Shown here: piece after piece, positions 3,345 to 28,657 of the stretch
How positions within the stretch are numbered: position 1 is the stretch's first letter
Layout of the letters: every line of letters starts with the position of its first letter
Assembly (NCBI GenBank): GCA_903868035.1
Contig: CAIPTQ010000116.1
Span: 1-28,657 of the forward strand
Reading direction: 5' to 3'
Length of the DNA stretch: 28,657 nucleotides
DNA from: an uncultured Phycisphaerales bacterium
GTDB taxonomy: Bacteria; Planctomycetota; Phycisphaerae; WQYP01
Program-made: the position numbers and the translations under genes
The notes under the pieces: generated by a model
What the model was told of the DNA's origin: nothing
The model's database searches: none
Seen by the model: only the letters and a program-made list of their open reading frames with translations

Positions 3345-4865
3345 CTAGGGGGCGGCGGTGTTATGGAACGACGAATCGGTTGGAACAACTGTGGGAGTGA
3401 TTTCACCGAGATCCTGGGTGCCGGTGGTTTTGACGTCGGCATCCAGGGTCGCCAGCCAGGGGCGGGTATCGGGGTGATAGCGGCCGATGGACACGTGGTC
3501 GAAGCGGACAGCCTGGGCGTGGCGGAGGTAGAAGCCCCACGCGGGGGTGTCGCCGAAGAGATTGGATTGCGGATAGAGGCCGGCTTTTTCGCCGGGGTCG
3601 CCGGGGATCGTGTTGCTGCCCCCGGGCATTTCAAAGTAGCAATCGGAGAGGGTGATGTTTTTTAGAGTCGCACCGGCGATGCCGCTGATGGAGCAGGATG
3701 CGCGGGGCCCCTTGGTTCCCAGGGCGCGGACGCGCTGGATCGTCACGCCGTCGATGGAGCCTTGGGGTACGACATCCACCTTGGGGGGATTGAGCAATTC
3801 ACCAGGGCCGCCGACACGGTGGTCGACGCGGATGAAGATGGGCTGGCTGACATTATAGATATCCAGGCCGCGGACGGTTACATCGGTGACCGCCGAGCCG
3901 TCGACGGACTCGAGGCAAAGGCCGCCGAGATTCGCGCCCATGATGGTGTTATTGAACATGTGGATATTGGATATGGGGCCGGCGGTGGCCGTGCCCAATT
4001 TAATCGCGTTGGCGTCGGAATGGATGATGGTGTTGTTTTCGATCAGGACGTTTTTAAGGCCGGGGAGACCGTAGCTTTTGAGGCAAATGCTGTCGTCCTG
4101 GGAGTCGATGCGGCAGTTTCGGATGATGACATCATGGCAGTCGCAGATGTCCATGCCATCGAGATTGGAGCCATTTTCCTTCGGGGCGAGAACGGTGAGA
4201 CGGTCGATGAGGAGGTTGTTACACTCGCTGTAGACTTGGGTCCACATCCGGGGATTGGCGAGGGTGAGATTGCGGACGATGACGCCGTCGCTGTGGAACA
4301 GGCGAATGAGCGAGGGGCGCTGGGGTTCCTTGCCGGCCATCTTGACGCGCCGGCCCTGGCCGTCGATGACTCCGGGGCCGTCGAGGATCAGGCCTGGGGC
4401 ATGGTCGGCATAGAGGAGGCTGCGGCGGTTGCCGGTGGCCAGGGTCTGGGCGGGTACAAGCTCCGGGTAATCGGCCGCTTCGATGCCGCCGAGAAGGGTG
4501 GCGTCTTTTTCGATATAGAACGTCATGCCGCCCTTGAGCGTCAGTTGCGCGGAGAGAAATTTGCCCTTCGCGAGATAGACGGTTCCACCGGTTCCCGCGC
4601 AGGCGTCGATGGCTTTTTGCAGGGCGGGCGTGTCGTAGGTAATGCCGTCAGCCTTGGCGCCGTAAGTTCGCGGATCAAAGAGGGGCTTGGGTGGCGGGAC
4701 GATGACGGGGGCAAGGGCGTGCATCTCCGCAGCCGGCTGGCCGGGACCGACCGCCGGCGCGGATGCCGGCGCGGACGCCGTCGGGGCGCTGGCCCCCGCA
4801 CATCCGGCGCTTACCGCCGCCACGCCTGCCCAGAACGCGAATAGTTTTCCCAGCGGCGCTTTCAT
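3345..4865 (-). CDS. GH28 polygalacturonase-like (right-handed beta-helix) protein
   Basis: Predicted inverting hydrolase of galacturonic-acid-containing glycans (polygalacturonase or rhamnogalacturonase type). The 506-residue product has a signal peptide with a possible but poor lipobox (VSAGC, C22), then an Ala/Pro linker. The beta-helix begins with DPRTYGAKADGITYDTPALQ (about 64-83), the usual GH28/pectate-lyase-superfamily entry. The GH28 catalytic block is visible: SNLDGMDICD with D236 and D239, then DSQDDSICLKS with D257-D258. ANAIKLGT may stand where classical enzymes have their substrate-binding RIK motif. GAGGAAG precedes the ATG. It lies between GH29 genes with gaps of 53 and 56 bp. 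It is the best clue that the target polymer has a pectic (galacturonan-containing) component; the exact substrate cannot be read from sequence. Confidence 0.85.
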   Translation of the reverse strand: MKAPLGKLFAFWAGVAAVSAGCAGASAPTASAPASAPAVGPGQPAAEMHALAPVIVPPPKPLFDPRTYGAKADGITYDTPALQKAIDACAGTGGTVYLAKGKFLSAQLTLKGGMTFYIEKDATLLGGIEAADYPELVPAQTLATGNRRSLLYADHAPGLILDGPGVIDGQGRRVKMAGKEPQRPSLIRLFHSDGVIVRNLTLANPRMWTQVYSECNNLLIDRLTVLAPKENGSNLDGMDICDCHDVIIRNCRIDSQDDSICLKSYGLPGLKNVLIENNTIIHSDANAIKLGTATAGPISNIHMFNNTIMGANLGGLCLESVDGSAVTDVTVRGLDIYNVSQPIFIRVDHRVGGPGELLNPPKVDVVPQGSIDGVTIQRVRALGTKGPRASCSISGIAGATLKNITLSDCYFEMPGGSNTIPGDPGEKAGLYPQSNLFGDTPAWGFYLRHAQAVRFDHVSIGRYHPDTRPWLATLDADVKTTGTQDLGEITPTVVPTDSSFHNTAAP

Positions 4866-4918
4866 ACGAGGGCTTCCTCACAAGACGATCACTACGGGGG
4901 CGTGTCCGGTGGACGCCA

Positions 4919-6604
4919 TCATTGGGGCGTGATCTTGAAACAATAGGCGTAATCGTTGGGCTTCTTGTCCGGCATGGTAATCGTCAATCCCGCGGCATCA
5001 TGGGTGAATGCCACCGCGCCCACGCCCAGCAGTTCCACCTTGGCCACATCCTTCGGGAAGGCCGCGGCGCCCTTGGCGAGCGTCTTGATGAGCGCCTTGC
5101 CGTTGGCCGGCCAGACCATGACAAACGCATACAACGTGTCGCCCTTGGTCGTGAAGCGGACATCGTCGGTCTTGTACGTCGCGAGCGACCCGCGGGCCAC
5201 GGTGGCGGTGGTGGCGGGGCCTTCGCCGAAGACCTTGAAGGGGCGGGTGCCATAGATGCCTTCGCCGTTGGGGGCGATCCAGGAGGCGACGCCTTCGAGA
5301 ATCTTCACTTCCAGCTCGTCGATGGTGCCCTCGCCGCGGACGGGGATGCTGAGCATGAGGTTGCCGTTCTTGCTGACGATGTCGATGAGCATATGAATGA
5401 CCTGCTGGGCGGTCTTGTACTGGTTCTGCTCGAAGCGGCTGCGTTTGTAATGCCAGGAGCCGATGCAGATGTCGGTCTGCCACGGGGTATCCTGGGCGCC
5501 GCCGGCGAATCCGTTCTCGATGTCGTACACGAGGGCCTTGCGCCACGCGACATTGGCCCCGGTGAGGTCCTTGCCGGTCATAATGGCTTCCAGCTTGCCC
5601 TTGCGGGCGAGGTTGGTGTTGTAGAGGTAAGCGGCGATGCGCGGGCCGACGTCGGTGGCGGGATAAATGGGCATCACCGTGTCGTCGAAGTACAGCAGGT
5701 CCGGCTGGTACTTGTCGATCAGGTCCACAATGCGGTTGAAGAACTTCTCACTGAAGTTTTTGTCGATCGGGGGAGTGCCCGCCTGGCCCCAATTGTATGT
5801 GCCGACCTTGTGATACTGGGCGTAAAAATCCTGCGGATCGAGGCCCTCCCACCAGAGGCCCTTGCCCTGGGCCTTGGTCATCAGGCCGTCATAAGGCACA
5901 CCCGCCAGTGGTCCGGTGGTGTCGGCGCCTTGGGCGGCTTGATACCAACTCCAGGCGCGGTCGCCGTGGCTCGAAATCGCGAAACGCAATCCCGCATCTC
6001 GCGTCGCCTTCATCCAGCCGCCGACGAGGTCTTTCTTGGGTCCGATTTTTACGCTGTTCCACGGCTGATACTTGGAATCGAAATTGTCAAAGTTGTCGTG
6101 ATGGTGCGCCATGGCCGCGAAGAATTTCGCCCCGGCCTTCTTGTACAGCGCGATCAGCGCCGCAGGATCCCACTTCTCGGCCTTCCACTCGTTGCAGATG
6201 TCCTTGAACCCGAACTTCGACGGATGGCCGTATTTCGGCACATGATACTTGTAAATCTCGTGCGTCTCGTGATACATGTTCTGCGCGTACCAGTCGCCCT
6301 GCTCGGGCTGGCATTGCGGCCCCCAATGCGCCCAGATGCCGAACTTGGCGTCGCGATACCAGTCGGGCACCTGGAAGTTGGAGAGCGATTCGAGCGTGGG
6401 CTTGAAGGGCCCGTCGGCGACGCCGAAGCCGGGTGGGGGGAGGATGGGAGTGGGGGCGGGGGGAAGGACTTTGGCCGCGGCGGGGCCGGTGGCGGGAGGC
6501 GCGACGGGGTTGGCGTCGGCGGCCTGACCGAAGGCTTTGGGGAGACAGGCGGCAGCGCCGGTTGCGGCGAGGAGTTGGACGGCGGTGCGGCGGGTTATCT
6601 TCAT
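4919..6604 (-). CDS. GH29 alpha-L-fucosidase-like enzyme, Tat-exported (paralog 3)
   Basis: Product of 561 residues from the ATG at 6604, chosen because GGAG precedes it and the twin-arginine leader begins there (MKITRRTAVQLLAATG, ending LPKAFGQA). A Pro/Ala linker spans about 30-62. The catalytic domain has DAKFGIWAHWGPQ (HWG 93-95), HHDN at 168-171, SVKIGPKKD, GKGLWWEGLDPQDFY (247-261) and LLYFDD with D307 as the expected nucleophile. The C-terminal beta-sandwich contains DVRFTTKGDTLYAFVMVWP. It is a close relative of the GH29 genes at 88-1680 and 9958-11655. A run of charged and aromatic residues (NMYHETHEIYKYH) replaces the MYIQGQ segment of its sisters, a possible specificity difference. 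Confidence 0.88.
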   Translation of the reverse strand: MKITRRTAVQLLAATGAAACLPKAFGQAADANPVAPPATGPAAAKVLPPAPTPILPPPGFGVADGPFKPTLESLSNFQVPDWYRDAKFGIWAHWGPQCQPEQGDWYAQNMYHETHEIYKYHVPKYGHPSKFGFKDICNEWKAEKWDPAALIALYKKAGAKFFAAMAHHHDNFDNFDSKYQPWNSVKIGPKKDLVGGWMKATRDAGLRFAISSHGDRAWSWYQAAQGADTTGPLAGVPYDGLMTKAQGKGLWWEGLDPQDFYAQYHKVGTYNWGQAGTPPIDKNFSEKFFNRIVDLIDKYQPDLLYFDDTVMPIYPATDVGPRIAAYLYNTNLARKGKLEAIMTGKDLTGANVAWRKALVYDIENGFAGGAQDTPWQTDICIGSWHYKRSRFEQNQYKTAQQVIHMLIDIVSKNGNLMLSIPVRGEGTIDELEVKILEGVASWIAPNGEGIYGTRPFKVFGEGPATTATVARGSLATYKTDDVRFTTKGDTLYAFVMVWPANGKALIKTLAKGAAAFPKDVAKVELLGVGAVAFTHDAAGLTITMPDKKPNDYAYCFKITPQ

Positions 6605-6648
6605 GACGGTACTCCGAAACAAGGTCCAAGGCGGGACGGTTAGGGGTT

Positions 6649-8190
6649 CTATTTCTTCCAGACGCTGGCGATCTCGGCATCGTAGACCACGGCGACGACG
6701 GAATCCGCCGGGGAAGAGGCGCGGTCGATGTTGCTGATGATGATATCGGGGCCGGCATCCAGGGCCAAGGGCTTGCCGGTGTAGACATCGTAGGCCTTGG
6801 TGGCGTGCAGTTTGCCGAGCGGGGGCATCTTGAACGAAGTGCCGGCGTACTCCTTCAGGAGATGCACATAGACGGTGGAGCCTTTGTAGCAGTAACCGTA
6901 TTGCTTATCGACGGGTTCCCAGGGGCCGCCGCGGGTGCCGTAGACGGCGTCGCCCATTTTGGCCAGCCAGGCGCCCATTTCGCGGAGGCGCGTCTGCTCG
7001 AGGTCGGGTATGACGCCATGGCGATCAGGGGCCACGTTGACGAGGAGGGTCATGTTGCGGATGACGCAGTTGGCCATGAAGCGCACCAATTGGTCGCGCG
7101 TCATCACGTTGCCACTGGCGATGGACTTGGCGTTGTAGCCCCAGCCGCCGTTTTGCATGGTCAGGTTTTTGTCGCAGATCACGCTGCTGCGGATCTTGCC
7201 GACGGTTTCCTGGGAGCCTTCTTCCTCGATGACATCGCCCATCCAGCCGTAGCGGAGGTTGGTGATGGCATCGGGCTGGTACTTGCGGACCATGCCCATG
7301 ATGCCCAGGCCTTTGCCGGTGGATTCTTCGGTGTCGATGTACTGCTTGGAAATCGGCCATTTATTAGCCGGATCCAGATATTTGCCGGATTCGTGGAAGG
7401 GGGCGGCTGCGGCATCGGAACCCGATTGGCCTAACCAACCCCCGTCCCAGTAAATATGGTCGATATGGCCGTAGGCCGTCATGAGCTTTTTGACGTTGAC
7501 GTAGTTTTCCTCCTTCATGAGGCGGGCGTTTTCGAGGTGGGCCGGATCGGTGGTATAGCCGAACTTATTGGGCAGGCAATTGGTGCCGGTGACGTCGTAA
7601 TAGCCGGGATAGCGCCAACTCAAGGGGGAATAATAGAGGCCGACCTTCAGGCCCGCGCCGCGGCAGGCCTTGACGTACTCGTCCACAAGATCGCGTTTGA
7701 GGGTCTGCATGCTGGTGAAGGCGTTGGGATGCGGGCTGTCGAACAGACTGAAGCCGTCGTGGTGGCGCGCCGTCAAACACATCCACTTCATACCGGCGTC
7801 CTTGGCGAGCTTCGCCCAGGCGTCCGGGTGGTAGTCGGCGGCATCAAAGTACGCATCGCCGCTTTCGGGGAAGGCGAACTGGCGGTACTTGTCGGGCAGG
7901 ATGCTTTCATTATTCATGACCCATTCGCCGCGGCCGGGGCCGGAGTAGAGGCCCCAGTGGATGAACATGCCGAATCTGGCGTCGAGAAGCCAGTCGAGCT
8001 TTTCATTGGGGAGCTGGGCGACGCCGAGTTGGGTTTGCGGCACGCGGGGGGCGGGTTGGGGGGGGACGCTGGGCTGGGTGTCGGCGCTGGGCGCGGCGGG
8101 GGGGGGTGCCTGTCCGAAGACGTGGGGCAGACACATGGCGACGACCGTGCCGGCGAGAAGTTGCAAGGCGTTTCTGCGGGTCATTTTCAT
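6649..8190 (-). CDS. GH29 alpha-L-fucosidase, Tat-exported, HHDGF type (paralog 4)
   Basis: Product of 513 residues from the ATG at 8190 (GAGGAA just upstream). Twin-arginine leader MKMTRRNALQLLAGT ends LPHVFGQA, followed by a Pro-rich linker to about residue 52. GH29 motifs: ARFGMFIHWGLYSGPGRGEW (71-90), HHDGF at 143-147, GLYYSPLSWRYP (184-195), and HIDHIYWDGGWLG with D249 as the expected nucleophile. NVAPDRHG occurs late in the barrel. It resembles secreted GH29 enzymes of the more canonical WDGG type and is only distantly related in its catalytic domain to the adjacent HHDN paralogs, although its leader closely matches that of the GH29 gene at 4919-6604. Gaps of 44 and 72 bp to its neighbours fit one transcript. 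Confidence 0.88.
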   Translation of the reverse strand: MKMTRRNALQLLAGTVVAMCLPHVFGQAPPPAAPSADTQPSVPPQPAPRVPQTQLGVAQLPNEKLDWLLDARFGMFIHWGLYSGPGRGEWVMNNESILPDKYRQFAFPESGDAYFDAADYHPDAWAKLAKDAGMKWMCLTARHHDGFSLFDSPHPNAFTSMQTLKRDLVDEYVKACRGAGLKVGLYYSPLSWRYPGYYDVTGTNCLPNKFGYTTDPAHLENARLMKEENYVNVKKLMTAYGHIDHIYWDGGWLGQSGSDAAAAPFHESGKYLDPANKWPISKQYIDTEESTGKGLGIMGMVRKYQPDAITNLRYGWMGDVIEEEGSQETVGKIRSSVICDKNLTMQNGGWGYNAKSIASGNVMTRDQLVRFMANCVIRNMTLLVNVAPDRHGVIPDLEQTRLREMGAWLAKMGDAVYGTRGGPWEPVDKQYGYCYKGSTVYVHLLKEYAGTSFKMPPLGKLHATKAYDVYTGKPLALDAGPDIIISNIDRASSPADSVVAVVYDAEIASVWKK

Positions 8191-8262
8191 CGTGTTCCTC
8201 GATTCTTGTGTGAACATAAAAAAGACATCGGACAGGCTTCCCGGAAGGCCCGGTCAAAGCGT

Positions 8263-9891
8263 TCATTTTCCAGAGATTTTCAATGTATAGGCGTATAGAC
8301 AAGGAGGCGCGGCGGGCAGTTGCACGGTCATGCCGTTTTCATTTTGCGCCCATTTCAATGAGCCTTTTGCGCCGAGCATTTGAATGTCCGCAACGTCTCC
8401 AAACCAGAGCGCCTTTCCCTTAGGCAGCGATTTGATGGTAACTTCCTTGCCCGGCCAGGCCATTAAAATGGCATAAAGGCATTTGCCCTTGGTGGTGAAC
8501 CGGATGTCCTCACTGGTATATTCTTTGGGCCGATTGCTTTGATTTCCTGTGACCGCCGCCACCTTGGTCGGCCCTTCTCCCATAAGTTCCCAGGGCCGGG
8601 TTCCATGAATGGCCTCGCCGTTCACGTCCATCCATTGCGCCATTTCATCCAGGAACTTAACGTAAGGCTCCACGATGGTGCCATCGGACAGAAGGTTGAT
8701 GTTCAGCAACAGATTTCCATTCTTGCTGACGATATCCGCCAGTTGCAGCACAATATCCTTGGTAGGGGTGGGGCCTCTTCCGGGAGTGATGAGATATTTG
8801 GGATTGATATAAAAGAACCCATCCAGGCCGGTATCGGTTTGCCAGGGATACTTTCTCGGCACATCGCTCTGTCCGTTTTCAATATCGGCGACAGCGCTCT
8901 TTTGCCGGTCTTCCGTCCGCGCTCCCTTAATATTAATCACGGCCTGGACTTTCCCATTATTCAATTTTTGATTCTGATTATAATAATAGGAAGCAATATC
9001 CAATCGGCCAAATGGAATGCCCCCGTCAAAATACAGCAAGTCGGGGTGATAGTTGTCTATCAGATCGACCGTCCGGTTGATCAGGCTGGTTTTGAAAAGC
9101 ACATCGGGTTGATCGCCGTCATTGCCGGGAAACGGCCCCTCGTAGGCTCCCTGGGTGCTTCCTTTATGGGGCTGTCCGTACAAATCCCGCGGATCGTACC
9201 CTTCCCACCATTTGCCCTTGCCGTCCTCCTTGGTGAGCCCGCCATCGTAAGGGACTCCTTTCTTGGGCCCGGTCACGTCGGCCATACGGGTAATCTCCCA
9301 ATATCGCCATGTTCCCTCTCCATGATTGGACACCCCGAATTTCATATTGTTATGTGCCGCGGCCTGCTGCCATTCTTTGACAATATCCCTTTTCGGCCCC
9401 ATGTTTACCGAGTTCCATGGCTGGTATTTGGAATTCCACATGTCGAAGTTGTCGTGGTGCATCGCCATGGACACGAAATAGCGCGCGCCTGCCTTGTGGT
9501 ACAGTTTCATCAAAGCTTCCGGATCCCATTTTTCGCACTTGAATAGGGGAATCAAATCCTTAAACCCAAATTCAGAGGGGTGGCCATACTTTTCCAGGTG
9601 ATAAGTATACGCCGGCGCCAAATCAGGGAACGCCCAAGTGCTGTCCTGTATGTACATCCGTCTGGGAAACCAGTCGCCATACTCCGCCACGCTGTTCGGC
9701 CCCCAATGGGCCCAGATTCCAAACTTGGCGTCGCGGAACCAGTCGGGGCAATCATATTGTTGCGCAAGCGATTCCCAGGTTGGATCAAAAGAGCCGGTTT
9801 TCGGAAGAACCGGCTGGGCGTAACCGGGAGCAGCCATGGCCAGATAAAGAAAACCGCAAAGAACTATCCGGATGATGACTTTCATCTTCAT
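8263..9891 (-). CDS. GH29 alpha-L-fucosidase-like enzyme, Sec-secreted (paralog 5)
   Basis: Product of 542 residues with a Sec signal peptide (MKMKVIIRIVLCGFLYLAMA, cleavage near GYAQ). AAAGGAGTG lies about 8 nt before the ATG at 9891. Motifs place it with the HHDN paralogs: DAKFGIWAHWGPN (HWG 62-64), HHDN at 145-148, SVNMGPKRD, GKGKWWEGYDPRDLY (224-238), and LLYFDGG with D289 as the expected nucleophile. It keeps the FDGG found in many GH29 enzymes, whereas most sisters have FDD or FDT. A Gly/Asp-rich loop (GPFPGNDGDQPD) is inserted near 252-263. The gene reads visibly more A/T-rich than its flanks, as does the GH2 gene nearby, and it lacks the Tat leader of its sisters, which may point to separate acquisition. 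Confidence 0.87.
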   Translation of the reverse strand: MKMKVIIRIVLCGFLYLAMAAPGYAQPVLPKTGSFDPTWESLAQQYDCPDWFRDAKFGIWAHWGPNSVAEYGDWFPRRMYIQDSTWAFPDLAPAYTYHLEKYGHPSEFGFKDLIPLFKCEKWDPEALMKLYHKAGARYFVSMAMHHDNFDMWNSKYQPWNSVNMGPKRDIVKEWQQAAAHNNMKFGVSNHGEGTWRYWEITRMADVTGPKKGVPYDGGLTKEDGKGKWWEGYDPRDLYGQPHKGSTQGAYEGPFPGNDGDQPDVLFKTSLINRTVDLIDNYHPDLLYFDGGIPFGRLDIASYYYNQNQKLNNGKVQAVINIKGARTEDRQKSAVADIENGQSDVPRKYPWQTDTGLDGFFYINPKYLITPGRGPTPTKDIVLQLADIVSKNGNLLLNINLLSDGTIVEPYVKFLDEMAQWMDVNGEAIHGTRPWELMGEGPTKVAAVTGNQSNRPKEYTSEDIRFTTKGKCLYAILMAWPGKEVTIKSLPKGKALWFGDVADIQMLGAKGSLKWAQNENGMTVQLPAAPPCLYAYTLKISGK

Positions 9892-9957
9892 GATTTCACT
9901 CCTTTCGTTTCGCGATATTCCGTGTATGCACGTGATTACCCGAGCGTGGTTCGCCGC

Positions 9958-11655
9958 TCACTTTGTCGGCACGCCCTGAATCTTCAGCGTCACGGCGAAC
10001 TGGCTCGGCGCTTTTTCCGGCAGATTCACTGACAAGCCCTGTTCATCCTGCGTCCAAGCGACCTTGCCGTCAAAGCCCAGCAGTGAAACCGCCGTGACCT
10101 TGGCGCCCGACATCTGCGACGATCCGGTGCCGAGGCTCTTGATGAGCGCCTTGCGGGAATCCGGCCACGCTCCGACGAATGCGTAGAGCGTGTCGCCCTT
10201 GGTGGTGAAGCGAATGTCCTGAGCCGTGTAGGCCGGCGCCGCCCCGCGCCCGCCGCCCCGGCCGGCCGCGAGGGACGGCCCTTCGCCGTGAATCTTCCAG
10301 GGCCGCGTGGCATAGATGCCCTCGGAATTGACGCCCATCCAGGCGGTCAGGCCGGCCAGGAACGCCTCCTCATGTTCGTCGATGGAGCCGTCGCCGCGGA
10401 GCGGGAGGTTGAGCATCAGGTTGCCGTTCTTGCTCACGATGTCGGTCATCATCGCCACAATCGCGGCGACCGTCTGGTAGCGATTCCCCTCCGCGACGGC
10501 CCGGCTGTAATGCCAGTCGCCGATGCAGGTGTCGGTCTGCCACACATCGGGGCGGATGGCGTTGGCGGTGCTGCGCTCGATGTCCTCGACGAACGCGCCG
10601 ACATGCGCCGGCAAAATGTGCTTGCCGTTGACGACGACCTCCGCGCGGCCGCCATTGCGCGCGGCACTGAGGTTGTAGTAATGCGCCACCACGTCCAGCC
10701 CCGCCTGTTCCAGCGGCAGCTCGTTGGTGTCGAAATAGAGCACGTCCGGCTGATACTTCTCCACCAGTTCCTTGCAGCGCAAATACCAGTTCTCACAAAA
10801 CGCCGCCGACGGCATCGGGTTGCTCTTGGCCAGGCTGGTGTTGGCGGTGATCCAGGCGTTCACGGCCGCGGCCGTCTTGAGTCCGTCGGGCATCTTCACG
10901 ACGTTGCCGGTATACAACTCCTGGGGATCGAGGCCCTCCCACCATTTGCCCTTGCCGTCCTCTTTTTTCAGCGTGTACGCGTCGTAGCACACGCCCGCCA
11001 GCGGCCCTTCGCCATCGTAGCCGTAGGCCGGCTGGAGCCAGCGGTTCGCCCACGACGCGTGATTCGTCACGCCAAACCGCAGGCCGTTCTCGCGCGCCAC
11101 TTTGGCCCAGGTGCCCACGATGTCCTTTTTGGGGCCGACGCGGACGGAGTTCCAGGCCTGATGGGTGGAATCGTACATATCGAGATTGTCGTGGTGATTG
11201 GCCAGCGCGAAGAAGTATTTGGCGCCGGCCTTTTTGTAGAGGGCCATGAGGCGGGCGGGATCCCATTTCTCGGCTTTCCAGAGGTTGTCAATTTCCATGA
11301 ACCCGAACTTGGAGGGATGTCCGTAGGTTTTGACGTGGTAATCGTAATCGGCCTGCCCCTGGATATACATCTTGCGCGCGTACCAGTCGCCCTGTTCGGG
11401 GACGCACTGGGCCGTCCAATGGGCCCAGATGCCGAACTTGGCGTCCCGGAACCAGTCGGGGACTTGGTAATTGGCGACGAGGGATTGCCAGTTGGCCTTG
11501 AAGGGTCCGGCGGCGATGGGGTGGGGCGTGGCGGCCGGCGCGGGTGCGCCGGCGGCGGCCAGCAGGCGCGCACGCCAGAGGGACGCGGTGAGGCCCGCGC
11601 CGGCGGCGACCGTGGAGGCCTTCAGGAAAGCGCGGCGGCTGAATGGAGGGGTCAT
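9958..11655 (-). CDS. GH29 alpha-L-fucosidase-like enzyme, Tat-exported (paralog 6)
   Basis: Product of 565 residues from the ATG at 11655, preceded by AAGGAGC. The longer open frame upstream has no leader logic and overlaps the GH2 gene. The N-terminus is a textbook Tat signal (SRRAFLK at 6-12, then an Ala/Gly-rich h-region). Motifs: DAKFGIWAHWTAQ (79-81 is HWT, not HWG), HHDN at 154-157, SVRVGPKKD, EDGKGKWWEGLDPQELY (232-248), and DVLYFDTNELP with D309 as the expected nucleophile. An insertion around 255-290 (MPDGLKTAAAVNAW and on) is absent from the paralog at 88-1680. The leader, ribosome-binding site and first codons nearly match those of the GH29 gene at 17211-18851. The HWG to HWT change could alter the fucose pocket. 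Confidence 0.88.
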   Translation of the reverse strand: MTPPFSRRAFLKASTVAAGAGLTASLWRARLLAAAGAPAPAATPHPIAAGPFKANWQSLVANYQVPDWFRDAKFGIWAHWTAQCVPEQGDWYARKMYIQGQADYDYHVKTYGHPSKFGFMEIDNLWKAEKWDPARLMALYKKAGAKYFFALANHHDNLDMYDSTHQAWNSVRVGPKKDIVGTWAKVARENGLRFGVTNHASWANRWLQPAYGYDGEGPLAGVCYDAYTLKKEDGKGKWWEGLDPQELYTGNVVKMPDGLKTAAAVNAWITANTSLAKSNPMPSAAFCENWYLRCKELVEKYQPDVLYFDTNELPLEQAGLDVVAHYYNLSAARNGGRAEVVVNGKHILPAHVGAFVEDIERSTANAIRPDVWQTDTCIGDWHYSRAVAEGNRYQTVAAIVAMMTDIVSKNGNLMLNLPLRGDGSIDEHEEAFLAGLTAWMGVNSEGIYATRPWKIHGEGPSLAAGRGGGRGAAPAYTAQDIRFTTKGDTLYAFVGAWPDSRKALIKSLGTGSSQMSGAKVTAVSLLGFDGKVAWTQDEQGLSVNLPEKAPSQFAVTLKIQGVPTK

Positions 11656-11692
11656 GAGAGCGGCTCCTTGGTCCAGTCTGGCAATTGCCGTT

Positions 11693-13828
11693 TTAGTGGC
11701 CTCGGTCGAGGCATTGAATGGTAACGCTGGCACTCTGTAATCCCGGAGAAGAAGCGGTGATGGTAATATTTCCCGGCACATAGGAGCGCATGGTCATCTT
11801 CGCCATGCCATACCGCATGCACCTGGTGTCCGGCGAGGTGGCATTGTTAAAGGTCATGGCGGAGCCGGTGGGAAAATATCCCCCGCCGGAAGTTACGGTA
11901 AGCGTCACGGGCGGATTATTGTCCAGGGGCGTGCCATCGGCGGACACAATTTGCGCGGTGAGTTCGCAATCGTCCGTGCCGTTGTTTCCGATGGTGAGGG
12001 CATCCGCGGTCAAGGTTATTTTGGCCGGGGTGCCGGGCGCGGGCAGCTTATAGGGAATTCCCAGATTTTCCTGCCGGTATTGATACCATTCGGGCCCGGG
12101 AATCCTGTAGTAATCCACGACCCCGCCCAGTCCGCCGTTATTGGTGAGGAACGAACCGTAGCCAAAACCCACCCACCGCACTTGCCCCGCCCGCCAGGGA
12201 AAGGCCGGAACGCCTTTATGATCGTAATACTCGGTAATCACACTGGGAACCCCCGGATTTTGATAGGTGGCGATCGTCGCGCCGTCGCCGTTATATCCCA
12301 CCACCGGCGCCAGTTTGTCAAACCCCTGTCGTTGCGCGCCGCCCACGGCGGGGAGCCTCGAAGGATCAAGGGTTTGCGCCAGATCCGCCAGAACCCGGTA
12401 GAACGCCTTGCACTTGGCCATGACGGTTCCGCCCGGGCAATCGAAGGTTTCGTTACCCATGCTCCAGACAATGATGCTGGGATGGTTTCTTCGTTCGCGG
12501 ATGAATTCCGTCAGTTGTTGTTTGAGGTTGTCTTCGAACGGTTTCTCGTCAGCCACCTTGGTGGGATAGGAACTTTGGCGCCAGCCGCCGTCCTCGTTGG
12601 TGTTATATCCGCCCACGCCCCAGAAAGAATTTTCCGGCCAGGCCAGCATCCCCACCTGGTCACAGGCGTCATCCCAGGAAACGTCGTGGGGATTGTGACA
12701 TTCCCGGATCAAATTAAAGCCGCACTGTTTCATGAGCAAAACGTCGCGTCTAAAGCCGGCGTTGGTCTGGGCGATGCCCCAGCCGGCGCGATCATCGTGC
12801 GCATTGACGCCATTGATCAGACACCGCGCTCCATTGAGTATGAAGCCCCGATCGGCGGTCCACTGAATCGACCGTATGCCCAGCGGACTTTCGTAATTGT
12901 CCACGATGGCGCCTTTAGCATCCGAAACGATCGTTTTTACTTTGTACATATAGGGCGTTTCCGGAGACCACAAATGGGGATTGGGAATGTCCGGACTGGT
13001 TTGGTCAAACTCCTGCACCGCGCCCGCATTGATCTGCTTGGAGCTTTCCATTGTGGCCACTATCGTATTGGCTGCATCAGCAATGATGGTTCTGACGGTG
13101 CAGTTTGCCGGCAGCGCGTTTTCATTCTTGATTTCGGTCTTCACATTGACCTTGGCCCCGGACGCGGAAACCTGCGGCGTGGTGACAAACGTGCCATACC
13201 AGGTGACATGCAGCGGATTGGTGATCACCAGATAGACGTCCCGGTGAATGCCCCCTAAAAACAGCCAGTCGGCTCCCCGCGGGGCGATTTGCGGGTCCCA
13301 CTTGTTATTCACCCGCACCGCGATGACATTGTCGCCCGCTTTGACGGCGTCGGTGATATCAAAATAAAACCCCGTGAATCCGCCTTTATGTTCCCCCATG
13401 AGTTTTCCGTTGACATATACCTGCGCGACTTGAAACGCCGCTTCAAATTCCAGAACGATCCTGCTGGATTCTTTCCATTGCGCCTGCACATCAAAATGTT
13501 TCCGATACCACCCGTAGCCGACATACCAAAAAATCCCCTGCTTGCCGGAATAATAAGGGGTGTCAAAGACATGGGGCAGGTTGACTTTAGCCCAGGCGGC
13601 GTCGCCGTAACCGAGCGCTTCGGCGCCGGTCATGTCGCCTTTATAAAAAGCCCAGCCTGCATTCAGGTTGATTTTTTCCCGCTTGGCAATAACAAGGTCC
13701 GACGCCGCCGGGATGGCAAGATCCTGGGGCGCGGCCGCCGTGGAAGCCCTTGGGGAGCAGCCTGAAAGACTTGCTCCAACCAGCAGGAACAGAACGCCCG
13801 CCATGATTAGAGTCTTTATAGTTTTCAT
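11693..13828 (-). CDS. GH2 beta-galactosidase-like lipoprotein
   Basis: Predicted retaining GH2 enzyme (beta-galactosidase or related activity) anchored to the membrane. The 711-residue product has a lipoprotein signal with lipobox LSGC (21-24). Domain order: N-terminal jelly-roll sugar-binding domain (about 50-210, with NAGWAFYKGD, NLPHVFD and GGIHRDVYLV), Ig-like domain (about 215-320), then a TIM barrel from about 325 (ILNGARCLINGVNAHDD, NLIRECHNPHD). VWSMGNE supplies the predicted acid/base E460, and VITEYYDHKG the predicted nucleophile E533. A C-terminal bacterial Ig-like domain (about 605-705) follows in place of the large C-terminal domain of LacZ. AAAGGA precedes the start. It is tightly linked to the GH29 genes (19 and 37 bp gaps). 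Likely role: removal of beta-linked galactose once fucose caps are gone (inference). Confidence 0.87.
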   Translation of the reverse strand: MKTIKTLIMAGVLFLLVGASLSGCSPRASTAAAPQDLAIPAASDLVIAKREKINLNAGWAFYKGDMTGAEALGYGDAAWAKVNLPHVFDTPYYSGKQGIFWYVGYGWYRKHFDVQAQWKESSRIVLEFEAAFQVAQVYVNGKLMGEHKGGFTGFYFDITDAVKAGDNVIAVRVNNKWDPQIAPRGADWLFLGGIHRDVYLVITNPLHVTWYGTFVTTPQVSASGAKVNVKTEIKNENALPANCTVRTIIADAANTIVATMESSKQINAGAVQEFDQTSPDIPNPHLWSPETPYMYKVKTIVSDAKGAIVDNYESPLGIRSIQWTADRGFILNGARCLINGVNAHDDRAGWGIAQTNAGFRRDVLLMKQCGFNLIRECHNPHDVSWDDACDQVGMLAWPENSFWGVGGYNTNEDGGWRQSSYPTKVADEKPFEDNLKQQLTEFIRERRNHPSIIVWSMGNETFDCPGGTVMAKCKAFYRVLADLAQTLDPSRLPAVGGAQRQGFDKLAPVVGYNGDGATIATYQNPGVPSVITEYYDHKGVPAFPWRAGQVRWVGFGYGSFLTNNGGLGGVVDYYRIPGPEWYQYRQENLGIPYKLPAPGTPAKITLTADALTIGNNGTDDCELTAQIVSADGTPLDNNPPVTLTVTSGGGYFPTGSAMTFNNATSPDTRCMRYGMAKMTMRSYVPGNITITASSPGLQSASVTIQCLDRGH

Positions 13829-13847
13829 GGGTTCGTATCCTTTATCT

Positions 13848-15518
13848 TCACTTTAGTTTCAATCCGCTGATCTTCAACGCATACGCATAATCGCACGGCT
13901 TTTCCGCCGGGAACTTCACCCTCAACCCCTCGGCATCCTGGGTGAACGTGAGCGCTCCGGCGTGGCCGAGCAACTCGACCTTCTCCACCTTGCCCTGCAC
14001 CGGCTTGCCCGTGGCCAGCGACGTAATGACCACATCCGCGGCCGGCCAGGCCATCACCGTCGCATACAGCGTGTCGCCGTGCGTGGTGAAGCGGATGTCC
14101 TGCGGCTTGTATCCGCCGCCCCGCGGCATCCCCCCGCCGCCGACGCCGTCGCCGGACATGTTCTGCGAGTTGAGCTTGCCGGCGAACCCGGCGGCGCGCA
14201 GCTTCACCATCGACGTCGCCACCGCGTCGGCGACGGGGCCTTCGCCAAACTTCACCCACGGGCGCGTGTAATAGATTGACTCGCCGTTGACTTCCAGCCA
14301 TTTGCCGATCGCCAGCAGCACGTCTATTTGTTCCTGCGGGATGGTGCCATCGGCCTTGGGGGAAATGTTGAGCAGGAGGTTGCCGTTCTTGCTCGTGTTC
14401 TCGATGATCTTCTGGACAAACGAACCGGCCGGCGCGGGGTGGATGCCTTCGACATAACCGAATTTATCCTGAATGGGATCATCCGGCTGCCAGACCCAAT
14501 CGGTCAATTCCATCGGCGCCCGGCCTTCGCGCTCGTAGTCCATGATCTGGCCCGAGACCCAGGCGGCGGTCTTGGCGCTGATGAAGACTTCCTTATTGTG
14601 CTGCTTGGCCCAGTTGTAGTAGTAGGCGGCCACCCGAATCTTAAGGGGATCCCACGCATGGTCGGTGTTCATGTCGAACCAGAGCGTGTCGGGCTTGTAT
14701 TTCTCGATGTTTTCAATTCTTTTGGCGACCCAGTCGTGCATGAATTTGACCCGCGCCGCCTCGCTCTTATCCGCGACGTTGTAGAAGGCGGCCCACTTGG
14801 GGTCGTATTGGTCGCTGCCGGCAAGTGCCGGTATGAAATCGAAATGGAAGGCGGAGTGATCGGAGATGCCGGTCTTCAGGCCGGCTTTTTCGAGTTCCTT
14901 GATCAGGTCGCCGTCGATGTCGCGCTTGGGCCCGTAGTTCACGGAGTTGTAGGGATTGATCGCGCTGTCCCAGTTGGAGAACCCGTCATGATGTTCGCCC
15001 GGAGCCAGCACGTATTTGGCGCCGGCCTTCTTGAACAGCGCCGCCCAGGCCTCCGGATCCCACTTGGCCATCGTGTACATCGGCAAAAAATCCTTGTACC
15101 CGAATTTCGTCGGCGGGCCGAAGTTCTGCGTGTGCCACTGCATGATGCCGGCATTGCCGCCATACATGTAGCGGACGTACCACTCGCTGCCGTGCGCCGG
15201 CACCGAGAAGATCCCCAGGTGCATGTAAATGCCGAACTTGGCGTCGCGGAACCACTCGGGATCCTTGTAGTTCTTCTCGATCGACTCCCACGATTCCCCA
15301 AAGGGACCGGGGGGCGGGGCGGGGATGTCCTTGAGGGCGGCGGCGATCATGGCGGGGGTGTCGCGGACGCGCCGGGCATTGCCGCCGGGTGCGGTGGCGG
15401 GACCGGCAACGCCGGGTTCTTCCACCGGCAATGTGGCCTGCCCAAAAGTTCGGGGCAGACCCAGGGCGGCGCCCATGATGGCGAAGGTTAGGGCGGCGGT
15501 TACGCGGGACATCTTCAT
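13848..15518 (-). CDS. GH29 alpha-L-fucosidase-like enzyme, Sec-type leader (paralog 7)
   Basis: Product of 556 residues, GGAGGAAAA just before the ATG at 15518. The leader (MKMSRVTAALTFAIMG, ending LPRTFGQA) has only one arginine, so Sec export is expected, although its tail matches the Tat leaders of other genes here. Catalytic-domain motifs: DAKFGIYMHLGIFSVPAHG (HLG at 100-102 replaces HWG), EHHDGF at 175-180, NYGPKRD, and DTLWFDMNTDHAW with D282 as the expected nucleophile. SKNGNLLLNISPKADGTI marks the barrel end. A Gly-rich loop (GDGVGGGGMPRGGG) precedes the C-terminal DIRFTTHGDTLYATVMAWP. It is the first gene of the second predicted transcription unit, directly downstream of the conserved element at 15563-15637. 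Confidence 0.87.
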   Translation of the reverse strand: MKMSRVTAALTFAIMGAALGLPRTFGQATLPVEEPGVAGPATAPGGNARRVRDTPAMIAAALKDIPAPPPGPFGESWESIEKNYKDPEWFRDAKFGIYMHLGIFSVPAHGSEWYVRYMYGGNAGIMQWHTQNFGPPTKFGYKDFLPMYTMAKWDPEAWAALFKKAGAKYVLAPGEHHDGFSNWDSAINPYNSVNYGPKRDIDGDLIKELEKAGLKTGISDHSAFHFDFIPALAGSDQYDPKWAAFYNVADKSEAARVKFMHDWVAKRIENIEKYKPDTLWFDMNTDHAWDPLKIRVAAYYYNWAKQHNKEVFISAKTAAWVSGQIMDYEREGRAPMELTDWVWQPDDPIQDKFGYVEGIHPAPAGSFVQKIIENTSKNGNLLLNISPKADGTIPQEQIDVLLAIGKWLEVNGESIYYTRPWVKFGEGPVADAVATSMVKLRAAGFAGKLNSQNMSGDGVGGGGMPRGGGYKPQDIRFTTHGDTLYATVMAWPAADVVITSLATGKPVQGKVEKVELLGHAGALTFTQDAEGLRVKFPAEKPCDYAYALKISGLKLK

Positions 15519-25466: not shown

Positions 25467-26633
25467 CTACAGCTTTAACTTGGCAATCCGGTCCACGGCC
25501 TGATGGATGCACGAGACGTCCACCGTCAGGGCCATGCGCAGAAAACCTTCGCCCGCGGGGCCAAAGCCCCCGCCGGGAACGGTGACCACATAGGCTTCGT
25601 CCAAAAGCCGCGCGCACACCTCCATGCTCGGCAGGCCGCGCGGGGTGTTGGCCCAGCAAAAGAAGCCGGCCGTGGGCTTGCGAAATTGCCAGCCCAGTCC
25701 CGTCAGGCCCGAATGCAGGGCGTCGCGCCGCTGGCGGTAGACCGCCATTTGTTTTTTCACCGCCGGATGGTCGTAATGCTCAAGGGCCACCTTGCCGGCG
25801 ACCTGGATGGCGTTGAACTGGCCGGAATCGACGTTGCTTTTCACCTGCCCCAGCGCCGCCACCAGCGCGGGGTTGCCCGCCGCCCAGCCGATGCGCCAGC
25901 CGGTCATGTTGAAGCTTTTCGACAGCGAGTGGAACTCGATGGCCACGTCGATGGCCCCGGGGATTTCCAGGATCGAGTGCGGTGCCTCCTCAAAATACAC
26001 CTCGCCGTACGCCAGATCGTTGGCGATCACCCAGTTGTACCGGTGGGCGAGTTCCACGGCCTTCTGATAAAACGCCGGCGGTGCCGTCGCGGCCGTCGGA
26101 TTGTTCGGATAGTTGAGCCAGATCAGCTTGGCCTTGCGTTTGATCTCCTCGGGAATCGCCTCGAAGTCCGGCAGAAAATCGTTTTTCTCCAACAGCGGCA
26201 TGATGTGCGGCACGCCCCCGGCGAAGAGCGCCCCCGTGTTGTACACCGGATACCCCGGCTGCGGCACGAGCACCACATCCCCCGGATTGACCACCGCCAG
26301 CGGCAAATGGGCGATGCCATCCTTCGAGCCGATCGTGGTGATGATGTTCTGCCCCGCCTCGAGCGTCACCCCGAACCGTTTCCGCATAAACGCCGCCGCC
26401 GCCTGTCGAAATGCCGGCACCCCTTCGTCAAATGGATAGCGGTGGTTCTTGGGGTCATAAATGGCCTGCGCCATCTCATCAATGATGAATTTGTGCGTGG
26501 GCAGATCGGGATCGCCCACGCCCAGGTTGATCACGTCCTTGCCGGCGGCCAAAAGGGCGCGCTTTTTTTTGTCGATCTCGACAAAGAGATACGGCGGCAG
26601 GGCCTGCAAGCGGGCGGATTTGACGAAGGGCAT
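25467..26633 (-). CDS. dapL: LL-diaminopimelate aminotransferase
   Basis: Fold-type I PLP aminotransferase that converts tetrahydrodipicolinate directly to LL-diaminopimelate (lysine and peptidoglycan synthesis), bypassing the succinylase or acetylase steps. The product has 388 residues, normal for the family. Visible: GVGDPDLPTH (38-47), YPFDEGVPAFRQA, NYPNNPTAA (174-182), ND..Y (D206, Y209) contacting PLP, and SLSKSFNMTGWRIGW with the Schiff-base K239 and R247. GAGGAA precedes the ATG. DapL is characteristic of Chlamydiae, other PVC bacteria, plants and some anaerobes. Related class I aminotransferases are the main alternative, but the N-terminal LxxLPPYLFxEID pattern and ending are those of DapL. 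Confidence 0.88.
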   Translation of the reverse strand: MPFVKSARLQALPPYLFVEIDKKKRALLAAGKDVINLGVGDPDLPTHKFIIDEMAQAIYDPKNHRYPFDEGVPAFRQAAAAFMRKRFGVTLEAGQNIITTIGSKDGIAHLPLAVVNPGDVVLVPQPGYPVYNTGALFAGGVPHIMPLLEKNDFLPDFEAIPEEIKRKAKLIWLNYPNNPTAATAPPAFYQKAVELAHRYNWVIANDLAYGEVYFEEAPHSILEIPGAIDVAIEFHSLSKSFNMTGWRIGWAAGNPALVAALGQVKSNVDSGQFNAIQVAGKVALEHYDHPAVKKQMAVYRQRRDALHSGLTGLGWQFRKPTAGFFCWANTPRGLPSMEVCARLLDEAYVVTVPGGGFGPAGEGFLRMALTVDVSCIHQAVDRIAKLKL

Positions 26634-26786
26634 AAGCGATTCCTCAATGTTGACGAACGGGGCAGTGTACGCAATGGGCCGCGGTCTTGAAAGGCGCGGG
26701 TAAAGGCTTGTCCTGTCTCAATAGAAATGTCATGGGCCAAGATACCCACACTCCTCTCATTGCGCATTGTGTGATCATGCGCCGTT

Positions 26787-26814
26787 TTGCATCCCCGTGT
26801 CCATGGCGTATAAA
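26787..26814 (+). promoter_or_regulatory. Sigma70-like promoter ahead of the GH51 gene fragment
   Basis: TTGCAT (26787-26792) and TATAAA (26809-26814) are separated by 16 bp. The ATG of the truncated GH51 gene lies 35 bp downstream. Spacing and hexamers fit a housekeeping promoter, suggesting the broken gene may still be transcribed. Confidence 0.5.
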
Positions 26815-26849
26815 ATGCGTTTTTGAACAACGCTTAATTTTATCGGGGT

Positions 26850-27101
26850 ATGAACATGAACCGCCTCCCGCTGGCCGCGATTTTCGCGGTTTTGACCCTC
26901 CTGGCTCCGGCTATTTCCCTCAGTCGCGGCGAAGACGTCGCGCTCCAGGTGCATGCCGACAAGGTGGCCAACCCCATCAATCCCTTCATCTACGGGCACT
27001 TCTTCGAGCACATCTACAACGGCGGCGACAACGGGCTGTGGGGCGAAATGGTCTGGAAGCGCGGCTGGCGGCGGAGAAGCGTATCGAAGGTACATATGTG
27101 A
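26850..27101 (+). pseudogene. Truncated GH51 alpha-L-arabinofuranosidase (5' fragment)
   Basis: The first ~70 codons encode a Sec signal peptide (MNMNRLPLAAIFAVLTLLAP) followed by the GH51 N-terminal strand ADKVANPINPFIYGHFFEHI and NGGDNGLWGEMVW. Intact GH51 enzymes have about 500 residues or more; this frame stops after 83. From about 27057 the DNA switches to transposase coding in another frame, and the last residues (KRGWRRRSVSKVHM) are out-of-frame readthrough of that sequence. The rest of the arabinofuranosidase, including its catalytic Glu residues, is not in the window. The break is thus an insertion or deletion event, or an assembly junction. The product would be non-functional. Confidence 0.75.
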
Positions 27102-27532
27102 TTTCGACCAGCGAGCCGGCGTTGACCCCGTGGGAGGCGGTGGCGGCCTACAAGCAGTTGCAGGAGGTGGAGCGGGGCTTCCGCAGCCTGAAGGATGTGC
27201 TGGCGTTGCGTCCGATCTGGCATCACAGTCCGGTGCGGGTGCAGGGTCATATTCTGGTGGCGGCGTTGGCGCTGCTGCTGGAACGCGTGCTGGAGCAACG
27301 GCTGCGGGAAGCGGGCGTGCCGCTCTCGGCCCGCGAGGCGCTGCTGGCGGTGCAAACCGTGCGCCATGTCCGCTTCCAGGTGAACGGCAAGACCAGCGGC
27401 GGCGTGGCCAGCGGCAGTTCCCAGGCGCGGCAAGTGCTGCGGGCGCTGGGCCTCGACCAAGTTGAGTCCGCCCACGCCGCCGAAAGGAGACGAAACGGTG
27501 GTGTAGTGACTAATTCAAATTCCGGCCCTTGA
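27057..27532 (+). pseudogene. IS4/IS1634-like transposase, C-terminal fragment
   Basis: From about 27057 one frame reads LAAEKRIEGTYVISTSEP, then AAYKQLQEVERGFRSLKDVL and RPIWHHSPVRVQGHILVAAL, ending at the stop at 27530-27532. The pattern Y-x2-L-x2-V-E-x-x-F-R-x-L-K with a following RPI-x-H and RVxGHI is typical of the C-terminal part of IS1634/IS4-type DDE transposases and includes the last catalytic Glu region. The N-terminal two thirds, with both catalytic Asp residues, are missing. The fragment is fused in a different frame to the GH51 5' piece. No clear terminal inverted repeats are visible, so it is an inactive remnant. Confidence 0.72.
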
Positions 27533-27645
27533 TTTACAAGGACTTACGAGGGCCAATGCCAAACATAGGGTAGTGACGTTCACCATGCCCACCTATTCGG
27601 CGGGGGTGGTGAACGTGGGGAAGAAGTAGTTGGGTGTGATTTTCT

Positions 27646-28657
27646 TCAAGACCTCGCCGCGCGCCCGCGCCGTCTGGCCGTGACGGTTTTTCGCTCCGCG
27701 TCGCCCGCCCATTCATCGAGCTTGCGCCGGAGCTCCGCCTTGCCGGGCAGGTAGAGCCGATACTCCGGGGCATGGATGTGGGCGCCTTTGGGCAGCGTGA
27801 TTTCGACAAGGGCCTTGTTTTTCTGCTTGCACAGCACGATGCCGACGGTGGCGTTCTCGGCGGCGATTTTCACGTGGCGGTCGTAATAGTTGACGTACAT
27901 CTGCATCTGGCCGAGGTCCTGATGGGTGAGCCGGCCGAGTTTCAGGTCGATGAGCACATAGCAGCGCAGGAGGCGGTTGTAGAAGACCAGATCGACGAAG
28001 TAGTGTTCGCCGTCGAAGGTGAAGCGCCGCTGCCGGGCCTCGAACAGGAAGCCTTTGCCCAGTTCCAGCAGGAAGTGCTCGAGGCGCCCGATGATGGCGG
28101 TTTCGAGATCGGATTCGGAATAGGCGGCGCGCTCCTCCAGGCCGAGAAATTCCAGAACCAGCGGATCTTTAAGCAAGTCCTGGGGTTGCGTGATCGTCTG
28201 GCCTTCGCGGGCGAGCCTGCGGACGCCCTCCTGGTCGCGGCTGAGCGCGAGGCGTTCGTAGAGGCTCGAGTCGAATTGGCGCTTGAGTTCGCGGACGGTC
28301 CAGTCCGCCGCGGCGGATTCGATTTCGTAAAAGCTGCGCTCGGCGGGGTTCTCGATGGTGAGAAGAAAAACGTAATGGGTCCAACTGAGGGTGAAGGGGC
28401 GGGGCGGGATTTCGTGGGCGGTCGCCAATTGCCCAGTCGTTGACTGGGCAATTCGGGATTGGCCAGACACTGTCTGGCCAATTGGAACCAGTGCCGATTT
28501 CGCAGCCAATGGCAAAACTGCCGATTGGTCAGTCTGTGACTGACCTTTCTCGTCGGCGGATACGGCCCTGGCAACTGTGGATTTTGCAGACGCTGTCTGG
28601 TATTTCCTGGGCGAACCCAATTGGTCAGTCAGTGACTGACCAATTCGATGCTGGTTC
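27646..28657 (-). CDS. DUF1016/YhcG family PD-(D/E)XK nuclease, 5' end beyond the window
   Basis: The frame stays open to the window edge, so the gene is partial at its 5' end; the TTG at 28618-28620 is probably internal. The C-terminal domain is the YhcG nuclease type: LSWTHYVFLLTIENPAERSF, WTVRELKRQFDSSLYERLAL, then FEARQRRFTF, FVDLVFYN (D encoded at 27991-27993) and LIDLKLGR (DxK encoded near 27942-27948), forming the PD-(D/E)XK core. Then come QMQMYVNYYDR and a Lys/Arg-rich tail. The N-terminal DUF1016_N domain normally preceding the LSWTHY segment is not in the window. The linker is Gln/Ser/Thr-rich and encoded by repeated palindromes (28427-28645). Such proteins are often linked to restriction or mobile loci; the biological role is not established. 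Confidence 0.82.
   Translation of the reverse strand, partial: NQHRIGQSLTDQLGSPRKYQTASAKSTVARAVSADEKGQSQTDQSAVLPLAAKSALVPIGQTVSGQSRIAQSTTGQLATAHEIPPRPFTLSWTHYVFLLTIENPAERSFYEIESAAADWTVRELKRQFDSSLYERLALSRDQEGVRRLAREGQTITQPQDLLKDPLVLEFLGLEERAAYSESDLETAIIGRLEHFLLELGKGFLFEARQRRFTFDGEHYFVDLVFYNRLLRCYVLIDLKLGRLTHQDLGQMQMYVNYYDRHVKIAAENATVGIVLCKQKNKALVEITLPKGAHIHAPEYRLYLPGKAELRRKLDEWAGDAERKTVTARRRGRAARS
28427..28645. repeat. Series of in-frame DNA palindromes inside the DUF1016 gene
   Basis: Four clear inverted repeats are present: 28427-28438/28442-28453 (12-bp arms), 28458-28469/28471-28482 (12-bp arms, 1-nt spacer), 28527-28534/28538-28545 (8-bp arms) and 28619-28631/28633-28645 (13-bp arms). 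A decayed fifth lies at 28587-28599 (5-bp arms). Outer parts share an AATTGG(C/T)CAG consensus, but stem middles differ with matching changes on both arms. On the minus strand each is read in the same frame and encodes a peptide of the form (I)-(G/A)-Q-(S/T)-x-(T/S)-(G/D)-Q. Centre-to-centre distances are about 30, 66, 57 and 39 bp, all multiples of three. Confidence 0.85.

Follow-up and report, generated by a model that had tools for sequence, protein, structure and literature searches.

Genes of the DUF1016/YhcG nuclease family carry short palindromes inside their reading frames, and it is the palindrome rather than the encoded peptide that is preserved. The example from which we started lies in a 28,657-nucleotide contig of an uncultured Phycisphaerales bacterium (CAIPTQ010000116.1, analysed at its full length and hereafter the window), where a gene for a PD-(D/E)XK nuclease holds five related units in the linker between its domains. 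Such palindromes are a family-wide feature over Bacteria and Archaea, not a peculiarity of one gene; both arms change together between relatives, and the palindromes lie mostly in the DUF1016 gene, which they also flank in Escherichia coli and in one archaeal-class genome. As the best explanation we tentatively propose, at close to an even call, that they are cis-acting DNA recognition sites for the encoded protein. The gene, its domains and its units are as follows.

27646..28656, minus strand: DUF1016/YhcG-family PD-(D/E)XK nuclease gene (open reading frame; Pfam PF06250, E 1.5e-50, and PF17761, E 7.9e-12)
28399..28644, minus strand: variable interdomain linker with palindromic units (alignment and models of two relatives)
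28619..28645, minus strand: unit 1, AATTGGTCAGTCACTGACTGACCAATT, encoding IGQSLTDQ, 13 bp arms, 1 nt centre (palindrome scan and folding)
28587..28599, minus strand: unit 2, decayed, core CAGACAGCGTCTG (CAGAC GCT GTCTG), encoding KYQTASAK, 5 bp continuous stem
28527..28545, minus strand: unit 3, GGTCAGTCACAGACTGACC, encoding GQSQTDQ (KGQSQTDQ), 8 bp arms, 3 nt centre (palindrome scan and folding)
28458..28482, minus strand: unit 4, ATTGGCCAGACAGTGTCTGGCCAAT, encoding IGQTVSGQS, 12 bp arms, 1 nt centre (palindrome scan and folding)
28427..28453, minus strand: unit 5, AATTGCCCAGTCAACGACTGGGCAATT, encoding IAQSTTGQL, 12 bp arms, 3 nt centre (palindrome scan and folding)
28252..28392, minus strand: terminal part of DUF1016_N beyond the linker (residues 89-135), starting within FTLSWTHY (Pfam)
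27718..28182, minus strand: YhcG_C PD-(D/E)XK nuclease domain, residues 159-313 (Pfam)

The frame runs from 28656 to 27646, its 5' end truncated by the window edge, and the protein belongs to the family by both of its domains, with PF17761 at the N-terminus (45.9 bits, cut-off 32.8) and the PF06250 nuclease domain (171.5 bits, cut-off 32.5) above their curated cut-offs. The linker separates the N-terminal helices from the motif FTLSWTHY; in structure models of two relatives, the equivalent stretch has a model confidence (pLDDT) mostly below 50. The five units are centred at 28632, 28593, 28536, 28470 and 28440, with gaps of 39, 57, 66 and 30 bp, every one a multiple of 3, and of the 12 pairs about each centre they keep 12, 7, 9, 12 and 11. 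Unit 2 is called decayed because its continuous stem is only 5 bp and 7 of its 12 pairs remain. The original prediction of related in-frame palindromic units in a nuclease linker is thereby confirmed, with three units having 12-13 bp arms, one 8 bp arms and one decayed. Those three are the longest palindromes in the whole window; the longest arms in three first-order Markov sequences used as a control were 11, 8 and 9. The summed arm length of the linker was 32 against a mean of 1.1 under synonymous-codon resampling, and none of 100 resamples reached 32. As single-stranded DNA, the four better units have folding energies of -6.6 to -12.3 kcal/mol, with z-scores between -3.3 and -7.4. Each palindrome is odd, with its central base at codon position 1, and the peptide of a typical unit is I-x-Q-[T/S]-x-[S/T]-x-[Q/K/E].

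A protein search scored at least 7,999 relatives, and the same units recur in an alignment of 28 of them, in which unit residues appear by eye to be coupled (F...K, G...Q, R...E, T...S, S...T) as a DNA palindrome predicts. For counting, we assembled the best 80 of 574 contig-scan loci, the loci of later searches and the window. Of 177 hidden Markov model matches, 156 genes were extracted, identical or partial ones being dropped; 108 belong to the close subfamily (76 from the best-80 scan, 31 later ones and the window) and 48 are distant. These sequences are related, and counts are not independent events. Scoring arms of at least 8 within the 110 codons preceding the motif, we found palindromes in 83 of the 108 close genes (counting the window gene) and in 32 of the 48 distant ones; they were absent from the other 25 and 16. 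Mean arm-sums were 12.9 against 0.46 in synonymous resamples for the close genes and 8.1 against 0.32 for the distant, with p<=1/60 in 70 of 108 and 28 of 48, respectively. An initial synonymous test had covered 67 of the 80 loci plus the window, 13 being dropped with the motif not found. In a control region at the start of the nuclease domain there were no palindromes in the 108 close genes and one in the 48 distant genes.

The palindromes are phase-locked and mostly 25-27 bp, occurring either as a lone site before the nuclease domain or as several in the disordered linker. In the close group the codon phase of the centre is common to 125 of 133. Much of the window's subfamily shares the core ATT nnn CAGAC n GTCTG nnn AAT, and elsewhere the core is GACGCANTGCGTC-like. 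Distant subfamilies often have a single site directly before the nuclease part, with other arms (e.g. CAATTCGTGACGCGCTGCGTCACGAATTG, AATTCGGAACGCACTGCGTTCCGAATT) and mostly the same phase. Titles of the best 80 loci include Verrucomicrobia, relatives of Acidobacteria, Betaproteobacteria, Desulfobacterales, Nitrospirae, Bacteroidales, Lachnospiraceae and Methanomicrobiales. Four of the 80 carry archaeal titles: three have palindromes (L030, p 0.08; L036 and L040, both 0/60) and L041 has none. On plasmid p7 of Cetobacterium somerae (L242:635-4478), a type I restriction-modification operon has a DUF1016 gene between its M and S genes, and this DUF1016 gene holds a single unit, AAAACGAAATCAGTGATTTCGTTTT.

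Selection on a peptide repeat, with the palindrome a by-product of codon usage, might seem to account for the fixed frame and the recurrent I-x-Q-T-x-S peptides. We rely on 86 distinct units picked by peptide alone, with no pairing filter: 76% of them have at least 10 of 11 pairs complementary, as against 0.5% under synonymous resampling, which bears out the suggestion that some constraint or copying process acts on the DNA beyond the peptide. The isoleucine codon is ATT in 74 of the 86 units (35% elsewhere in the same genes). Codon 3, for glutamine, is CAG in 74 of 86, but all 40 glutamines at codon 8 are CAA; T..S units use TCT for 74 of their 75 serines at codon 6 (15% elsewhere). The same residue thus takes different codons in the two arms, and the synonyms that would break the palindrome in homologs with the same peptide are mostly not used; palindrome frequency, likewise, is far above what codon usage leads one to expect. 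Residues co-vary as complementary DNA predicts, and peptide as the sole cause is ruled out because a non-coding unit after E. coli yhcG co-varies too. We rejected peptide-only selection on the synonymous-codon nulls and this non-coding copy, and give it virtually no chance of being right.

The two arms also change in concert. Among 101 distinct units picked by their left arm, the right arm being ignored in selection, complementarity at pairs 7, 8 and 9 reaches 88, 82 and 64%, against 34, 30 and 31% after shuffling, with the pairs being of GC, CG, TA and rarely AT types. Across 2,200 base pairs compared between related genes, a change on one side only was counted 250 times; changes on both sides were complementary in 271 cases and non-complementary in 88, the last a sign that some aligned units may not be orthologous; at most 3 pairs were used per gene, and under independence 106.5 two-sided changes of any kind are expected. 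The coupled arm change noticed in the window thus extends to its relatives.

These changes also feed the main rival explanation, functionless self-perpetuation, in which an ancestral palindrome in a neutral disordered linker has its arms corrected by template switching (quasi-palindrome correction), is multiplied by slippage and is read by no protein. Several observations fit it: arms are complementary even at variable positions, complementary double changes slightly exceed single ones (271 vs 250), two intergenic E. coli copies (L174 and L185) differ by the central base alone, as inversion would give, the centres ACACTGT and ACAGTGT are about equally frequent (19 and 16 of 86), and the linker is disordered in models. 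Self-perpetuation nevertheless leaves unexplained the near-restriction to one gene family, the subfamily-specific core with its conserved ATT...AAT ends, and the shared codon phase in subfamilies whose site abuts the nuclease part. On this balance we regard template-switching maintenance without function as unlikely, while the recognition-site explanation could accommodate part of it, since paired change at the less conserved nnn pairs is probably aided by hairpin-templated correction. That a single gene family, spanning Bacteria and Archaea, keeps palindromes in its coding DNA whose arms change in pairs runs counter to the usual view of coding inverted repeats as accidental or selfish.

Mismatches speak to a further alternative, that mRNA hairpins control translation or decay of the nuclease message. 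The units form stable single-strand stem-loops (by DNA parameters), and pairing is looser beside the centre, in the manner of a 3 nt loop (60% in the CAGAC class and 64% over all units), though it is 98% in the AAG/CAG class. Percentages over all units are biased upward, since out of 406 candidates picked by left arm the 180 kept were those with at least 7 of 11 pairs. Selection on RNA should tolerate G.U, yet of 200 mismatches over all units 100 are A.C, 35 G.U and 65 other; A.C outnumbers G.U by 91 to 19 in the I-x-Q-[TS] class and by 30 to 11 in the second class, codon constraint contributing to the difference. Flanking and solo copies, moreover, are intergenic, and no Rfam family was found in window positions 26500-28657. 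We consider mRNA hairpins very unlikely; of the suggested selection on DNA or RNA hairpins, the DNA part is supported and the mRNA part is not supported.

In the genomes and flanks examined, the palindromes are rare outside the gene. In the first 80 loci, the 79 kb of gene sequence hold 42 palindromes with arms of at least 11 and the 504 kb outside hold 8; core motifs number 69 inside and 2 outside, both at the L012 linker. For CAGACnnnGTCTG, counted in the larger set, the close-gene loci have 93 inside (144 kb) and 1 outside (698 kb), the latter 83 bp before a broken DUF1016 frame (L153); the distant-gene loci have 15 inside and 1 outside, just after the gene (L118). The distant genes contain the motif ACGCAnTGCGT 20 times. 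A further 4 copies lie outside them, all around the L158 DUF1016 gene, the site within that gene having ceased to be palindromic; close-gene loci have no copy inside and one outside (L078). Looser motifs were found outside too (complementary CAG-n7-CTG, 6 and 2; CGCAnTGCG, 16 and 7). At genome scale, CAGACNNNGTCTG stayed near its reversed-pattern control in ten genomes except G006 (6 vs 1), and across 68 genomes of the L012 family the palindromic matches among those listed fell, by eye, mostly at DUF1016 places, with the reversed-pattern control near zero. A dispersed repeat was rejected on this rarity in the genomes and flanks examined, and the likeness once drawn to a Rickettsia-type element spread over many genes was not borne out, even though solo intergenic copies exist. 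In one of the genomes (G002, contig C52:13816-13879), two CAGACNNNGTCTG matches 51 bp apart resemble two linker units; the known DUF1016 gene there (L014) has another core.

Flank tests also took in loci beyond the 156-gene set. Twenty regions, 18 from the Methanogenium class and 2 from the L012 family, were chosen for a match with no DUF1016 gene listed at it; 7 hold a DUF1016 frame and 13 do not, and solo or paired intergenic copies occur among these 13, in Methanomicrobia. Two 400 kb stretches of the Methanogenium class have 3 sites each, 2 of the 6 within a DUF1016 gene, and Cetobacterium plasmids p5 and p2 carry solo copies where no gene is listed. Around the L158 gene of the Methanogenium class (L158:1405-3055), four palindromes with core GGTACGCACTGCGTACC lie on both sides, and two of them terminate in runs of A and T, as bidirectional terminators do. 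Flanking palindromes as a general feature were nonetheless rejected: only E. coli and L158 show them clearly, and L118 has a near-palindrome immediately following the stop.

Thirty AlbA_2 loci (99 kb) served as a control, though in some of them a short frame was picked that may be another gene than AlbA_2. They gave 2 such palindromes in all, each lying well upstream of the tested frame. Non-coding clusters of several 25-nt palindromes and near-palindromes with varied arms (ATT...AAT) adjoin SLFN_AlbA_2 genes at L234:2497-3035 and L236:8853-9236. These had made SLFN_AlbA_2 a candidate second carrier family, which we rejected on the control.

In E. coli, a model organism in which the orphan YhcG/DUF1016 family can be approached, K-12 yhcG encodes the units IHQTMSGEL, IPQTPSAEF and IWQTLSAKS, with one broken pair in unit 1. 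Between strains, unit 1 is ATTCGCCAGACAGTGTCTGGCGAAT (L174) or ATTGTGCAGACACTGTCTGCACAAT (L177) and unit 2 is ATTCGCCAGACACTATCTGGCGAAT (L177) or ATTCTCCAGACTGTGTCTGGAGAAT (L178), and the non-coding unit 3' of yhcG shows the same paired variation (L174, L185, L190). The O157:H7 gene (L185) is missing units 2 and 3; the variable copy number suggested for the linker is supported. The gltF-yhcG island of K-12 is bounded by one palindrome on each side; four fetched strains judged from the gltD-nanQ region to have no yhcG there (L186, L187, L188, L191) have a single palindrome at that place, 27 nt of which are identical to the in-gene unit 1 of L174. A homing endonuclease gene would lie in an empty site that its enzyme cuts; at the E. 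coli empty site one identical palindrome is observed. In two further E. coli loci (L182:2501-3302 and L183:2501-3302) yhcG is truncated directly after palindromic unit 3 and a transposase gene follows; several other E. coli matches end at the same point, which may make the third palindrome a hot spot for insertion.

Solo copies raise the possibility of mini-palindromes mobilised by YhcG, as a PD-(D/E)XK analogue of REPtrons, that insert in the nuclease gene and occasionally elsewhere. The gltD-nanQ copy without yhcG, the island with a palindrome on each side where the empty site has one, the intergenic single and paired copies in Methanomicrobia and the solo copies on the Cetobacterium plasmids all accord with mobility. 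Copy number is low, however: a 33-mer search of E. coli genomes found 2 places in the median genome and 5 at most, the median being read as about one locus on both strands because the query is self-complementary, and each of two contigs of the Methanogenium class has 3 sites per 400 kb. No target-site duplications were shown, and some solo copies resemble linker remnants. We rate a mobile family as distinctly unlikely. The 33-mer also matched 15 plasmid records, including DUF1016 genes of Hymenobacter, Pseudomonas, Citrobacter and Variovorax and a broken Cupriavidus DUF1016 copy.

For recognition sites, the candidate reader is the N-terminal domain. The modelled DUF1016 N-terminal domain aligns structurally with the DNA-binding domains of ParB and Noc, with no significant sequence match to solved structures; a first structure model was poor (pLDDT 48.8), and a PDB sequence search gave none for A1 and, for A4, only OhrR at E 0.26-0.31. 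A dimer of this domain, ParB/Noc-like as modelled by AlphaFold, would bind a two-fold-symmetric palindrome. Binding might be to the site as an extruded cruciform, given the resolvase-like nuclease domain; the likeness of the DUF1016-type nuclease to Holliday junction resolvases is a published profile prediction only, in the part of the source consulted (PMC1189080). Holliday-junction resolvases were not named among the best 50 structural matches listed, an absence that decides nothing. The nuclease would thereby be tied to its own locus, for autoregulation or locus recombination. The self-target or binding site proposed in the original prediction is thus kept as the best mechanism, one that we infer from these models and patterns.

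A stronger form of the proposal, that a nuclease family encodes its own target sites inside its reading frames so that the coding sequence is the predicted target DNA, seems to us doubtful. YhcG and its site would then make up a locus that targets itself, for autoregulation, recombination or homing at the palindromes beside it, with target arms diversifying by paired changes. The palindromes in any event offer a testable substrate for the YhcG/DUF1016 nucleases, K-12 included. If binding is shown, a protein's recognition site would be encoded within its own gene; if not, the units are natural evidence of hairpin-templated mutation shaping protein sequence.

Three known classes of palindromic repeat come close, and each fails a defining test. 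In the parts of the sources consulted, Rickettsia palindromic elements (RPEs) and related repeats of Wolbachia and Methanocaldococcus are palindromic DNA inserted in frame in unstructured protein parts (PMC4316617, PMC2996958), as in the YhcG linker. RPEs are described there as about 100-150 nt long and spread over many genes and intergenic sites (PMC4316617), whereas YhcG units are mostly 25-27 bp, have co-varying arms and lie mostly in one gene family in Bacteria and Archaea; no single consensus over many genes or intergenic sites appeared in the genomes examined. PARCELs, as far as the available text goes, likewise are repeated coding units with dyad symmetry, spread horizontally (PMC2996958). 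The same text makes them 25-residue tandem amphipathic repeats, imperfectly palindromic and variably phased, in reading frames without assigned function, many of them membrane-targeted (PMC2996958); YhcG units, by contrast, are of 8-9 residues, spaced, in one phase and in a nuclease linker. REPs and REPtrons, according to the portion consulted, couple a DNA-processing enzyme gene with short palindromes that accompany and adjoin it (PMC3733652), and yhcG is similar in having palindromes also beside the gene. REPs differ in being high-copy and extragenic, with conserved tags and a tyrosine transposase, while YhcG palindromes are low-copy and mostly inside the frame of their own PD-(D/E)XK enzyme. 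The palindrome-holding gene is PD-(D/E)XK by Pfam and not a RAYT HUH tyrosine transposase, its neighbours not having been searched for RAYTs.

ParB/parS and Noc/NBS are of another kind. The ParB and Noc DNA-binding domains bind palindromes, the NBS having the consensus TATTTCCC-GGGAAATA in the part of the source available (PMC7383237), and apart from the modelled domain alignment, units like ATTTCCCAG...CTGGGAAAT resemble the NBS ends, a resemblance only. DUF1016 proteins differ in their attached nuclease domain, their varying and co-varying sites, a linker that interrupts the domain, and the lack of a significant sequence match to any solved structure. We found no description of palindromes in DUF1016/YhcG genes in the open-access literature searched, and the accessible portions of PMC1913061, PMC1189080, PMC2672614, PMC11341870 and PMC8649781 make no mention of palindromes in the YhcG gene.

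The window protein also matches the PDC-S02 models of PADLOC (E 1.4e-104), which places it in that catalogue class; PDC we take to mean phage defence candidate, and the label is silent on palindromes. An NCBIfam search gave no match. Just before the YhcG gene, a frame at 26687-27532 matches a DDE transposase weakly (PF01609, below cut-off); it leads out of what, by eye, resembles the start of a secreted glycosidase gene, a possible insertion or assembly junction. Further away, positions 88-15518 on the minus strand hold many successive frames that, judged by eye, resemble secreted enzymes of the alpha-L-fucosidase/GH29 type.
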